Of a stretch of DNA of 64,000 bases, positions 38,829 to 43,290 are shown piece after piece. The stretch's first letter is position 1, and each line of letters begins with the position of its first letter. The stretch covers positions 1 to 64,000 of the forward strand of contig NZ_JALPQG010000012.1 of NCBI RefSeq assembly GCF_023195695.1. Direction: 5' to 3'. The translations under genes were made by a program, and so were the position numbers. A model generated the notes under the pieces. The model was not told the origin of the DNA and did not search any database. It worked only from the letters and a program-made list of their open reading frames with translations. Source of the DNA: Aliiroseovarius sp. S1339. Its GTDB lineage: Bacteria; Pseudomonadota; Alphaproteobacteria; Rhodobacterales; Rhodobacteraceae.

Positions 38829-40628
38829 ATGACTGACCTTAAACATATCCGCAATTTCTCGATCGTCGCGCATATCGACCACGGGAAATCCACGCTTGCT
38901 GACCGACTGATTCAGGAAACGAACACCGTTTCTTTGCGGGACATGAAAGAGCAGATGCTCGACAGTATGGATATCGAGCGGGAACGCGGGATCACCATCA
39001 AGGCGAACACCGTTCGGATCGAATACAAGGCGGATGATGGCGAGACATATATCCTCAACCTGATCGACACCCCGGGCCACGTGGATTTCGCTTATGAGGT
39101 TAGCCGCTCGATGCGCGCGGTCGAAGGCTCGCTGCTCGTTGTGGACTCGACCCAAGGGGTTGAGGCGCAGACGCTGGCCAATGTGTATCAGGCCATCGAC
39201 GCGGATCACGAGATTGTGCCGATCCTGAACAAGATCGACCTGCCGGCGTCCGACTGTGACCGCGTGGCCGAACAGATCGAGGATGTGATCGGTATCGACG
39301 CCTCGGGCGCCATTCAGGTATCGGCCAAGACGGGACAGGGCATCCATGAAACGCTGGAGGCTATTGTCCAGCACCTGCCCGCCCCAAAGGGCAATGCCGA
39401 CGCGCCGCTGAAGGCGATGCTGGTGGACAGCTGGTATGACTCGTACTTGGGTGTGATCGTTCTGATCCGCGTGATCGACGGCAAGCTGAAAAAGGGCGAG
39501 CGTATTCGCATGATCTCGACCAACGCCGTTTATCCGGTGGATCGGATCGGCGTGTTCACCCCCCAGATGGTTCCGATTGACGAGCTGGGGCCGGGCGAAA
39601 TCGGCTTCCTGACCGCCTCGATCAAGCAGGTGCGCGACACGCGGGTTGGCGACACGATCACCCACGAGAAGAAGGGCACCACCGATGCGTTGCCGGGCTT
39701 CAAACCCGCGCAGCCCGTGGTGTTCTGTGGCCTGTTCCCCGTTGATGCGGCCGAATTTGAAGACCTGCGCGACAGCATCGAAAAGCTGGCCCTGAACGAC
39801 GCGTCTTTCAGCTATGAAATGGAGACTTCGGCCGCGCTGGGCTTTGGCTTCCGCTGTGGCTTCCTTGGCCTTCTGCACCTTGAGGTGATCCGCGACCGGA
39901 TTGAACGCGAATATAACATTGATCTGATCACCACCGCGCCCAGCGTGATCTATCACATCTTCATGCGCGACGGCACGCAGTTCGAACTGCACAATCCCGC
40001 CGACATGCCCGACCTGTCAACGGTTGATCACCTGGAAGAGCCGCGCATCAAGGCGACGATCCTTGTGCCCGACGAATACCTTGGCGACGTGCTGAAACTG
40101 TGTCAGGACCGCCGGGGCATCCAGCTGGACCTGACCTATGCCGGGTCGCGCGCGATGGTTGTCTATGACCTCCCGCTGAATGAAGTTGTGTTCGACTTCT
40201 ATGATCGTCTGAAATCCGTAACAAAGGGTTACGCATCGTTTGATTATCAAATGCTGGGCTATCGCGAGGACAATCTGGTCAAGATGTCGATCCTTGTGAA
40301 TGACGAACCCGTCGACGCGCTGTCCACCATGGTTCACCGCGACCGCGCCGAAATGCGTGGCCGCGCGATGGTTGAAAAACTGAAAGACCTGATCCCCCGC
40401 CACATGTTCAAAATCCCGATCCAAGCGGCGATTGGCGGCAAGGTCATCGCGCGCGAGACGCTGTCCGCCCTGCGCAAAGACGTGACCGCGAAATGTTACG
40501 GCGGCGACGCGACCCGGAAGAAGAAACTGCTGGAGAAGCAGAAGGCCGGTAAGAAGAAAATGCGCCAGTTCGGGAAAGTGGATATCCCGCAGGAAGCGTT
40601 TATCAGTGCGCTTAAGATGGACGACTAA
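38829..40628 (+). CDS. lepA: elongation factor 4 (LepA)
   Basis: Translational GTPase, 599 aa. G1 AHIDHGKST near residues 13-21, G2 region [12 protein letters not shown]3 DTPGHVDF, G4 NKIDLP. The LepA-specific C-terminal domain ends with [21 protein letters not shown]. Start [10 protein letters not shown] at 38829; the extra 13 codons upstream are not conserved-looking. A single gene between the Lrp regulator and the AT-rich orphan gene. Confidence 0.97.
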
Positions 40629-40919
40629 GAGTCGGCCAGCTTATGCGCGCAGTGCGCGGCAGCGAATTGCGAAGCAAATCGCGTGCGCACCCCGTGCATG
40701 CTTTTTGACAGCGCCAGCAAAAACGGGTTTGATTTCTTCCGACTATTGGTACCGCGCTATACCGTTCAAATTGGTTGCTCTGTTTAGCCGGCTCGTCCTC
40801 GAACATGCTTCATGTTGTGCAGAGCTAACACAACATTGGGTAATTCTTAACGAGGCTGCTTAAGAGCGGTTGCGAAATCTCCTTATTGGTGTTTCCATCA
40901 ACCAAAACGAGATTAATTG
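40629..40919. other. AT-shifting intergenic stretch before the orphan gene
   Basis: 291 bases between lepA and the AT-rich gene. The first half is GC-rich; composition drops toward AT from about 40800, consistent with a junction with foreign DNA. An ATG at 40698 opens a 30-codon frame (MLFDSASKNGFDFF) ending at TAG with no ribosome binding site, so it is not called. No direct repeat or attachment site is apparent by eye. Confidence 0.4.
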
Positions 40920-41957
40920 ATGGAAAAAGTATTTCTAAAGTTTGATGGCCGTGAGGCATCGCAAGGACGCTTACATTACTACGAATATACAAGATCTCAG
41001 TACGCAACTGCGCGCTTCATATCGACAGTTGAGCATTTCCGAAGAACGCAAAAAGTTGCACAACGGATAACCCGTTCAGTGGCGGTTGAGATTTTGGTTG
41101 AAACACCCAAAGAGGGCTCGTTTCTCGAAGTGCTGTTCATAAAAGCGCAAGAAACTGCGGCGTCAGCAATAGCCGCGCCTCTGGGACCCCTAATATCTTT
41201 CGTTTGGAGTACTATCCTCCCGCGGTCGGAAAAAACGGATTCTGACCTAATCGAGATGGCGAGAATCCAACTAGCTACAGAGAAAGAAAGAACTAAGCAG
41301 GGTTTTCAAGAATCTGAACGAATGAATGCCTTACAAAATATTATTGAGAGTCAGAGTGCCACAACTCTCCAAGCATTGACGCTTCTCCAAAACACTCTTC
41401 CAGAGAATGCTGCATATGGTCGGGCCAATCTAGATTCCTCGAGACTGTCGGAAATTAACTCCGAAATGCAGCAAGAACATGAAAATCAAAAACTGCTCCT
41501 TCCGCATAAAGCAGCTTTTCAAAATATCGATTCTGACGCTCTTGCCCAACTTACCAGCCGTATCAGGCCGATGGTCCCGGAAATGGCGCTACCTCTGAAG
41601 AAAAGTGCTAATACATTGTCGATTGGGGGTGATAACGAAAGCAAGCCGTATGTGCTGCTAAACCCAACCAATGTTGCAGAGATCACAGAAAAATCGCTGG
41701 ACGATGAGGTTACAGAACTCGAGATTCATGTCAGAAGTTATGATCGTGATAGAGGGATCGGTAAAGTGACCTCTCCGGAGCTTAAAAGACAACTTAACTT
41801 CGCAGTACCTCCGGCCAAACAATTTGCGCTACTGGAAAACATCCTTGAGTCGATGGCCGTTGACAAAGCATTGCTGGAATGCCGGACCTATCGGGATAAG
41901 AGTGGGGAAATCTCATCACTGTTGTTGGTAGATATTTCGCCCATTTACGGTAGATAG
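40920..41957 (+). CDS. AT-rich orphan gene, protein of unknown function
   Basis: 345 aa, start MEKVFLKFDG. Base composition and codon use (AAA, AGA, TTA, ATA frequent) differ clearly from every neighbour. I see four parts: an N-terminal alpha/beta-looking domain (1-75) containing TPKEGSF at about 62-68; a hydrophobic segment (79-100, possible membrane helix); a long helical, charged linker (105-205); and a C-terminal beta-rich domain (about 250-345, HVRSYDRDRGIGKV, then SSLLLVDI). A GSF motif after a first domain recalls uncharacterised accessory-island proteins, but I cannot place it in a named family. Followed directly by a palindromic repeat. Confidence 0.75.
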   Translation: MEKVFLKFDGREASQGRLHYYEYTRSQYATARFISTVEHFRRTQKVAQRITRSVAVEILVETPKEGSFLEVLFIKAQETAASAIAAPLGPLISFVWSTILPRSEKTDSDLIEMARIQLATEKERTKQGFQESERMNALQNIIESQSATTLQALTLLQNTLPENAAYGRANLDSSRLSEINSEMQQEHENQKLLLPHKAAFQNIDSDALAQLTSRIRPMVPEMALPLKKSANTLSIGGDNESKPYVLLNPTNVAEITEKSLDDEVTELEIHVRSYDRDRGIGKVTSPELKRQLNFAVPPAKQFALLENILESMAVDKALLECRTYRDKSGEISSLLLVDISPIYGR

Positions 41958-41995
41958 CTTTTTTGTAAGCTAAGATTGCTTTGTTTGGCCCCGCA

Positions 41996-42060
41996 CGGGC
42001 AGCGCCCGACCCTCCCCACGGGAGGGCGCTTAGCACCCACGCAGGGTCAGGCGCCGCCCT
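41996..42060. repeat. intergenic palindromic repeat after the orphan gene
   Basis: Back-to-back stems: CGGGC-AGC-GCCCG (41996-42008), CCCTCCC-CAC-GGGAGGG (42010-42026), and an outer pairing of GACCCT (42008-42013) with AGGGTC (42044-42049) as an alternative fold. Similar sequences occur between many genes of Rhodobacteraceae. It marks the boundary of the AT-rich gene and may also act as its transcription end. Confidence 0.6.
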
Positions 42061-42156
42061 CTGAAACGACGCACCCAAAGTTCGGCGTGACTCCCACTCC
42101 CCTTCCCCTCCTCTCCATAGCTCCGTATACGGACACCACCCAACCCCGGAGCCTCC

Positions 42157-42663
42157 ATGACCTGCCCCCTCTGCGCCTCAGATGCCCCTCTATCATCCTT
42201 CCCTGTCCCCGGCGGACCCGAGGGCGCGTCCGTGGACATTTGCGCCACCTGTGCCGCTCAGATCGACGGCACGCCCGAGGAGACCCATTGGCGGGGGCTT
42301 GCGTCCTCGATGTGGTCCGAGGATGTGGCGGTTCAGGTGGTGTCTGTGCGGATGTTGAAGCGGATTGCCGCGCCTTGGGCGCAGGATTTGCTGGATCAGG
42401 TGTATCTGGACGAGGACACGCAGGCGTGGGTCGACAATCAGGCCGCCGCGTCCCAGCACAAGGATGCCAACGGGGCGGTGCTGAACCAAGGTGACAACGT
42501 GGTGTTGATCAAGGACCTGCCCGTGAAGGGCGCGGGGTTCACGGCGAAACGCGGCACTCCGGTGCGGGGGATCAGCCTTGTGGCCGACAACCCCGAGCAT
42601 ATCGAGGGTCGCGTTGAAGGGCAGCGCATTGTCATACTGACGCAGTTCGTGAAGAAGAAGTAG
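42157..42663 (+). CDS. PhnA/YjdM-like protein
   Basis: 168-aa protein with an N-terminal zinc-ribbon (CPLC at 3-6 and CATC at about 29-32) and a C-terminal SH3-like PhnA domain (NGAVLNQGDNVVLIKDLPVKG in part). The family is historically called alkylphosphonate utilisation protein, but a direct role in phosphonate use is not supported; no phn genes are near. A basic end (KKK) closes the protein. Confidence 0.88.
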   Translation: MTCPLCASDAPLSSFPVPGGPEGASVDICATCAAQIDGTPEETHWRGLASSMWSEDVAVQVVSVRMLKRIAAPWAQDLLDQVYLDEDTQAWVDNQAAASQHKDANGAVLNQGDNVVLIKDLPVKGAGFTAKRGTPVRGISLVADNPEHIEGRVEGQRIVILTQFVKKK

Positions 42664-42706
42664 GCAGGGCAGGGTCGGTCGGCTATGTCGCCGGGCAAGG
42701 AGGCCC

Positions 42707-42904
42707 ATGATGCGTTCACCGCTTTTCAAGATCGTCATGACATTTTACGGGATCATCGGGTCCACGCTGGCCTCGGTTCTGGTGGTGGTCGCGCTGGTCA
42801 ACGGCGTGTCGGGCCTGTGGCCTTTGCTGGGCGCGGCGGGCGTCGGGTTCGTGGTCGGGCTGCCGGTGAGCTACTTTGTCGCAAAGGCAATGATCGGCGA
42901 CTGA
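42707..42904 (+). CDS. small two-helix membrane protein (first of two paralogues)
   Basis: 65 aa with two membrane segments (about 10-32 and 38-58) and end SYFVAKAMIGD. The second half GLPVSYFVAKAMIG resembles ALPVSWIVAKQING of the next gene. Function unknown. AAGGAGG lies just before the ATG at 42707 or 42710. Confidence 0.7.
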   Translation: MMRSPLFKIVMTFYGIIGSTLASVLVVVALVNGVSGLWPLLGAAGVGFVVGLPVSYFVAKAMIGD

Positions 42905-42978
42905 TCCAGATCAAAGAGGCGCGGCGGTGCCCGGTCCACAACACGTGCGTGTTCGCGAATATATCTAAGGAGAACGCC

Positions 42979-43158
42979 ATGTTCCGTCTCGCCGCCGTCA
43001 TCTATATCCTGCTCAGTGCAACGCTCGCCGGGATATTCATTGTCGCCGCCCTGACCGTCGGTATGGATACCGCGCAGCCGATCATCTACGCCGCCGTCGC
43101 GGGTTTTGCCGTGGCATTGCCGGTTTCGTGGATCGTGGCCAAGCAGATCAACGGCTGA
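42979..43158 (+). CDS. small two-helix membrane protein (second of two paralogues)
   Basis: 59 aa, start MFRLAAVIYILLSATLAGIF, with two membrane segments. AAGGAG lies 7 bases before the ATG. Length, topology and the ending LPVS.VAK..NG match the preceding gene, so it looks like a tandem duplication. Similar 60-aa proteins occur in other Rhodobacteraceae and have no defined function. Confidence 0.72.
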   Translation: MFRLAAVIYILLSATLAGIFIVAALTVGMDTAQPIIYAAVAGFAVALPVSWIVAKQING

Positions 43159-43213: not shown

Positions 43214-43290
43214 GGTCCCATAGCTCAACTGGATAGAGCATCTGCCTTCTAAGCAGAGGGTTGCAGGTTCGAGTCCTGCTGGGATCGCCA
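43214..43290 (+). tRNA. tRNA-Arg (anticodon TCT)
   Basis: Cloverleaf read directly: acceptor GGTCCCA (43214-43220) pairs with TGGGATC near the 3' end (one G-T wobble); anticodon arm TCTGC-CTTCTAA-GCAGA gives anticodon TCT, decoding AGA; T-arm GCAGG-TTCGAGT-CCTGC; encoded CCA at 43288-43290. Total 77 nt including CCA. Confidence 0.97.

Follow-up and report, generated by a model that had tools for sequence, protein, structure and literature searches.

Turnover of genes between two core genes is known from a system described in 2017 (PMC5635113), in which, according to the part of that report considered here, no recombinase was recognised and a sign of exchange was left in the flank. In addition, the part considered of a report on Pseudomonas aeruginosa (PMC10250203) describes core defence hotspots. 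The slot behind lepA analysed here resembles the former system in its gene turnover and, as far as the cargos scanned and the close lepA pairs compared suggest, in the other two respects, and the latter hotspots as a fixed chromosomal site rich in defence systems. Compared with what these parts describe, it also differs from each: unlike the system of 2017, the lepA slot holds only one or two genes, adjoins the same core gene across many genera of one family, the Rhodobacteraceae, and often has its cargo hard against the lepA stop codon, and unlike the P. aeruginosa hotspots it belongs to another bacterial class, lies at another site and carries single-gene cargos. As in integrase-less recombination hotspots, variable genes lie between conserved core genes and an empty version of the site is present. 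No lepA hotspot was found described in the literature searched. Our results revealed that the slot behind lepA is variable both in the genus and family-wide, and that a filled slot typically carries one or two AT-rich genes.

The lepA-phnA interval in the genus

The cargo gene of the window, by which we mean the whole 64,000-nucleotide stretch of Aliiroseovarius sp. S1339 that was analysed, starts 291 bp behind lepA on the same strand (Table 1), with an ATG codon (a TTG 3 bases upstream would add 1 residue). Its GC content is 0.458 (GC3 0.431), against 0.587 for the window, 0.578 for lepA and 0.637 for phnA, and five of 1260 segments of 1038 bp, taken along the window at a step of 50, were as low in GC, none of them outside the slot. 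The sharp difference in composition from both flanks, from which the original prediction had started, is therefore real. Between positions 40600 and 42160, a promoter scan detected no sigma-70-type site against 1.3 expected, with the reservation that promoters of Alphaproteobacteria may differ from this type, and five terminator-like sites were found against 1.9 expected, two of which, on the forward strand, overlap at 40681-40701. No Rfam family reached its gathering score within positions 40000-43000. Some 0.55 kb past phnA, at 43214-43290, lies a tRNA-Arg (TCT) gene, a kind of gene that often serves as an integration target.

Table 1. Features of the lepA-phnA interval and of the cargo protein, in window coordinates.
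Feature	Coordinates	Strand	Description and basis
lepA (elongation factor 4), left arm of the slot	38829..40628	+	ORF; family-wide match at E 1e-200
Resident repeat R1	40656..40691		In 13/19 genus gaps including empty L072 (<=7 mismatches in 36)
Foreign segment	~40694..41995		1302 bp, GC 0.455; replaces 99 bp of empty site L072; pairwise alignment, composition
Cargo gene	40920..41957	+	ORF, 345 aa: DUF7946 N-terminal domain, helical linker, C-terminal OB fold
N-terminal part, residues 1-105	40920..41234	+	GSF motif 66-68, conserved hydrophobic helix 88-99; AlphaFold2, alignment
Helical linker, residues 106-230	41235..41609	+	AlphaFold2; low confidence at 129-145 and 162-170
C-terminal beta domain, residues 232-343	41613..41948	+	Residues 262-343 match OB folds (SilF, SSB, cold-shock)
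Resident GC-rich inverted repeat R2	42003..42028		In 11/19 genus gaps (<=5 mismatches in 26)
phnA/yjdM-like gene, right arm of the slot in the genus	42157..42663	+	PF03831, E 7.8e-28

A protein search across 21 genomes of the genus, one of which is only 56% complete, detected the gene in its own genome and in no other. A phnA match was present in 20 of these genomes, two of the matches being partial; G006 and G016, without a usable phnA match, stand outside the gap comparison, which covers 19 lepA-phnA gaps, those of the window and of 18 genus mates (L049 among them). In all 19 gaps lepA and phnA lie on one strand, and the gap measures 306 to 2162 bp. An AT-rich ORF, defined as one of at least 100 aa that starts in the first kb and lies at least 8 GC points below the lepA end, was observed in 16 of the 19, and these cargos are mostly different from each other: each of the four genomes nearest by lepA (L061-L064, 97.5-98.7% identical) carries a different one. 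Cargos held in common are a 150-aa protein (L069, L071 and L077), a 119-aa protein (L073 and L077) and a Phd-type gene (L074-L076). In these last three genomes, the Phd-type gene stands 5' of phnA and has near-copies of a short TTTAAAGAGTTTACAGTTT-like motif in front of it.

The original prediction had pointed to a single AT-rich cargo gene beside a housekeeping gene; the gene would instead have been ancestral if every member of the genus had carried it at this position with a composition like that of its surroundings. None of the 20 genus mates has the gene, and most of the intervals read hold another AT-rich gene, which strongly supports the cargo reading. It is thus well supported that the AT-rich gene of the window is foreign cargo in a chromosomal slot, which explains its anomalous composition. 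The term orphan, also used originally, is apt within the genus and not in general, as the gene has relatives elsewhere (see below).

The empty version of the slot is that of L072, whose 306-bp gap has no cargo. The gap of the window aligns with it at positions 2-65 (89%), 1368-1495 (83%) and 1509-1528 (85%), leaving the foreign segment of Table 1. The repeats R1 and R2 are both present in empty L072 and therefore belong to the site, not to the cargo. R2 is the palindrome that had been noted directly downstream of the gene; the inverted repeat exists, but it is not a feature of the gene, since the empty site also has it. A role of this palindrome as the end of an integron-like or transposon cassette was considered and rejected: R2 is resident in the empty site, its 18-base core has three exact copies in the genome, it stands on either side of the cargo depending on the genome, and its predicted folding does not exceed that of shuffled sequences (z -1.33). 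The cargo is positioned hard behind lepA in L061 and L049, between R1 and R2 in the window and L065, and behind R2 in, for example, L064, L067 and L071, and these several positions relative to R1 and R2 argue against a single site-specific integration point.

Seventeen cargo proteins of the genus were scanned with Pfam and 10 with PADLOC. They include DUF4062/PDC-S60 matches (DUF4062 in L061), an SLFN_AlbA_2 protein (L062), a SIR2-like protein that PADLOC matched weakly (L065; 0.0015), a DUF4747 protein accompanied by a second protein (L066), a DUF2335 protein (L075), Fic proteins with a Phd-type gene nearby (L074 and L076) and an AAA/PDC-S59 match, while several cargos had no match at all. 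L068 carries an outer-membrane barrel whose composition is close to ordinary and which does not look like defence. The cargo of L070 is an AAA ATPase scoring above the cut-off of TniB, a family of transposition ATPases (25.0 vs 22.4 bits), so that some cargo may have come from transposons.

The slot across the family

The family sample comprised 61 genomes, one per genus, and lepA was matched at E 1e-200 in 58 of them, the genome of the window included. Downstream DNA was read from 40 other genera, those with the highest lepA scores among the 57 other lepA-bearing genomes, so that nearer genera are over-represented; G036 and G050 were skipped as too near a contig end, and for L123 and L142 the downstream DNA extends over no more than about 1 kb. 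Genes in this GC-rich DNA were called as greedy ORFs, without a gene finder. An AT-rich ORF was found behind lepA in 19 of the 40 genera and none, by the rule stated above, in the remaining 21, which together with the genus gives 35 of 59 lepA-downstream regions with such an ORF. Behind glyA, in the same family sample, the count was 1 of 29 (Fisher 3.9e-5; 30 loci of 57 genomes with a match, where some glyA genes within about 10 kb of lepA were kept in), and behind lepA in Acetobacteraceae it was 0 of 27 (Fisher 1.1e-5); L153, L183, L189 and L198 were left out of the control counts because of short flanks. The mean GC content in the family relative to the lepA end is -0.060, -0.054 and -0.021 in the first three 500-bp intervals and positive thereafter, so that the dip is limited to the first 1-1.5 kb. 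In addition, an ORF on the same strand starts within 12 bp of the lepA stop in nine of the 40 genera, and all nine of these ORFs are AT-rich; behind glyA, one same-strand ORF in 29 starts that close, and it is not AT-rich. The cargos of L063, from the genus, and L134, from another genus, are 59% identical.

From the family cargos, 10 were scanned with Pfam and 10 with PADLOC. Matches were obtained to PDC-M32A (L111), a TIR-type effector (L130), AAA with TIR_2 (L138) and HARE-HTH (L118), and in L124 (308-2084) a GmrSD_N/NsnA-like gene and a HEPN_MAE_28990 gene lie behind lepA. Counting both sets, 5 of 20 scanned slot cargos matched PADLOC at 1e-10, a share that is biased upward because the family cargos were picked by eye. 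The Pfam scan recognised no recombinase among 17 genus and 10 family cargo proteins, L070 being above the TniB cut-off. The AT-rich pair of L124 begins 3 bp past the lepA stop, with a phnA-like gene after it. In L110 (313-1591), a SocA_Panacea antitoxin-like gene starts 2 bp past the lepA stop and overlaps a second, unannotated gene, possibly as a toxin-antitoxin pair in the slot.

The DUF7946 protein and its relatives

The window protein is a divergent member of DUF7946 (PF25678): residues 6-149 match the profile with 42.2 bits against a curated cut-off of 27 (E 1.2e-10), the GSF/GSW motif is present, and identity to 26 aligned relatives is 21-26%. No paper naming DUF7946 was found in the literature searched, and two functionally unannotated PHROG families match the N-terminal part (1.3e-5 and 3.2e-4). 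In the alignment of 27 sequences, 21 columns are invariant, including F8, G10, Y21, E22, R25, G66, S67, G279, G281 and K282, and F68 is conserved in at least 90%, which bears out the GSF motif singled out in the original prediction. The helical linker and beta-rich C-terminal domain predicted with it are equally recovered in an AlphaFold2 model (pLDDT 79.9, pTM 0.76), with an alpha/beta part at the N-terminus, helices at 108-228 that are weak in places, and a beta domain at the C-terminus; predicted alone, the N-terminal domain folded poorly (pLDDT 73.8, pTM 0.47). The modelled C-terminal domain is a predicted OB fold, closest to SilF (Z 9.8, rmsd 2.0 over 73), with SSB and other OB domains at Z of about 8, and the best PDB rows of Foldseek are SilF and cold-shock domains, all with E above 0.001. 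For the hydrophobic stretch at residues 82-100, the best 19-residue Kyte-Doolittle mean is 1.56, under the usual membrane cut-off of 1.6, a value that does not establish the membrane link suggested in the original prediction.

A viral fold library gave three long matches below 0.001, the best of which is a phage protein named for DUF6575, A0A8S5QA00 (Foldseek E 5.6e-7, probability 1.00, 364 columns, but an overall TM-score of 0.30/0.28). According to the part considered of Vassallo et al. 2022 (PMC9519451), of 21 validated anti-phage systems of E. coli, one carries a DUF6575 domain; the link of the window protein to it is the fold match of its model to the DUF6575-named phage protein, not a sequence match. 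As hmmscan to E 10 gave no match of the window protein to the DUF6575 profile (PF20215), the tie to DUF6575 is a structural lead, not membership. The same profile was found in none of 149 family genomes (a search without a control match) and as two partial matches in 398 genomes of the phylum. The PADLOC name PDC-S42 was also rejected, being weak for the window protein (E 0.0074) and matched by none of 10 relatives at E 0.01. Searches with the window protein gave no match in phages or viral contigs and one weak match to a PDB sequence (E 0.076), and a single-protein scan of genome contigs found nothing.

A seven-sequence alignment, used to scan named genomes, yielded 27 loci, 26 of them with a full-length gene. 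These 26 relatives, all in Alphaproteobacteria, align along the whole window protein with the same architecture, and every one is AT-richer than its own flanks, which in the hosts of the members read have a GC content of 52-71% (0.43 in 0.68 in Azospirillum). A PF25678 match was present in 6 of 295 family genomes, and four of the six genes lie directly behind lepA on the same strand, in four genera, at distances of 291 bp (window), 59 bp (L010), 162 bp (L012) and 164 bp (L014). The proteins of L010 and L012 are 58.7% identical. As for the other two, the gene of L013 lies 2.7 kb from the lepA start, and L011 has no lepA within the 16 kb read. The DUF7946 members L030-L034, from the order search, and L035-L039, from other families, do not adjoin lepA. 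Of 120 neighbours of the relatives, two match PADLOC at 1e-10, both to PDC-S15, so defence islands are not the rule, and the copy on an Azospirillum plasmid sits among ordinary genes. Another DUF7946 branch (L036:6850-7752, L037:6502-7371 and L038:8790-9674) lies beside similar transposase genes (47-52% identical), of which the one scanned, that of L037, is DDE_Tnp_IS1595 (8.9e-42), suggesting that this branch travels there as a transposon passenger. An IS1595 passenger origin for the window gene was rejected, the arrangement being seen in that other branch and not at the window.

Beside 18 of the 26 relatives lies a conserved head-to-head gene for a membrane protein; an automatic reading shows a pair of strongly hydrophobic segments in 16 of these proteins and was halted early at a stop codon in the other two, for which it is uninformative. 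One such partner protein scanned with Pfam had no match, and the partner gene was not found within the 64-kb window. In the tree, all carriers of the partner group together (87/94 support, one change, 0/500 shuffles as low), so the pair looks secondary, with the reservation that the window protein sits on a very long branch and its place is unsure. L088 (7001-8856) and its sister L092 (6995-8853) have instead a close downstream gene, overlapping in L088, which we take to be FRG-like, and no membrane partner, and DUF7946-OB with this gene is possibly an alternative two-gene system. The other six relatives and the window have neither a head-to-head nor a close downstream partner. The hydropathy of the N-terminal helix ranges from 0.63 to 1.59 in the nine lone rows and from 0.53 to 1.36 in the 18 partnered ones (Mann-Whitney p 0.027, the rows not being independent); the tendency of lone versions to a more hydrophobic helix would fit a membrane role that the protein itself or its partner fills, as a suggestion only.

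Exchange of cargo and its possible function

The silent sites of lepA carry a possible sign of exchange. Identity of the window lepA to five close mates at four-fold sites is higher toward the 3' end, in the last third of the gene: 96/102 in codons 401-600 vs 153/192 in codons 1-400 for L061, 88/98 vs 136/190 for L062, 91/102 vs 130/189 for L063, 86/100 vs 137/188 for L064 and 89/100 vs 120/183 for L066, where the split at codon 400 was chosen after the data were seen and was computed for 5 of 17 genus mates. The other 12 were compared by plain identity only; over the last 300 bp of lepA, the plain identity of the window to all 17 is 0.88-0.97, which is not always the top block. Genus-wide, the two final blocks have a silent-site identity of 0.69-0.71, compared with 0.59-0.68 for most of the preceding blocks and 0.76 for one of them, and as this rise is modest, constraint is also a possible cause. 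The rise in the five close pairs suggests homologous exchange near the lepA 3' end.

We propose that cargo is exchanged through homologous recombination within the core genes on its flanks (lepA and, in this genus, phnA), and not by an integrase, and that cargo abutting the lepA stop may be read through from lepA. The window protein may be an anti-phage factor of the abortive-infection type, in which the C-terminal OB fold would recognise nucleic acid or another ligand that arises during infection; the acting or adaptor part, working at the membrane, would be the N-terminal DUF7946 domain. Membrane contact would be made through the protein's own hydrophobic helix in lone versions, or through the two-helix membrane partner in paired ones. 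That both parts hold, exchange of slot cargo through the flanking core genes and a single-gene anti-phage factor in the window, is in our view fairly probable. The anti-phage role would itself be a reasoned guess, drawn from the other slot cargos and from the fold lead: the defence or toxin function originally suggested is made likelier by the company in the slot and less so by the relatives elsewhere, which lie outside defence islands. In a wider form, which we put forward tentatively, the site behind lepA would be a plug-in slot throughout the Rhodobacteraceae for single anti-phage genes swapped by ordinary homologous recombination, many of them promoterless because they are expressed as the next cistron on the constitutive lepA transcript, and DUF7946-OB would represent a new defence family whose membrane or FRG-like partner can be exchanged.

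The slot could also be real and its cargos, the window gene included, a mixture of tolerated foreign genes without a defence role, such as a stress or envelope gene or a decaying passenger. Several cargos without annotation, the outer-membrane barrel of L068 and relatives placed among ordinary genes, as on the Azospirillum plasmid, would fit such a mixture, which we nevertheless hold to be rather unlikely: domains of defence type turn up repeatedly in slot cargos that belong to unrelated protein families, and the gene family has been kept as open frames across Alphaproteobacteria with its 21 invariant columns. Toxin-antitoxin or immunity cargo, with DUF7946-OB as one half of a pair whose other half (membrane or FRG-like) was lost or replaced in the window, seems improbable, given that partnerless versions occur with open frames on several branches (the window, Thalassospira, Rhodothalassium and a Sphingomonadales group); in its favour are the head-to-head partner in 18 of 26 relatives and the close downstream gene that replaces it in two.

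The presence of DUF7946 genes behind lepA in four genera, that of the window included, might also reflect an ancient family gene at this place, lost in most lineages and AT-rich through relaxed selection. We regard this as very improbable, as the gene occurs once in 21 genus genomes while unrelated cargos fill the same place, and as all members read are AT-richer than their flanks, over the whole range of flank GC. Exchange of cargo through the flanking core genes, with an anti-phage role for the window protein, is thus the reading that we prefer.

The lepA slot provides a clean system in which to ask how very small islands may move without an integrase. As a fixed address at which a bacterial family trades single AT-rich genes, it makes guilt by location testable gene by gene, and several of its cargos have no known domain. 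As the slot holds several antiviral-type genes, it points to new candidate anti-phage genes, and the combination of DUF7946 with an OB fold is a candidate defence protein with alternative partners.
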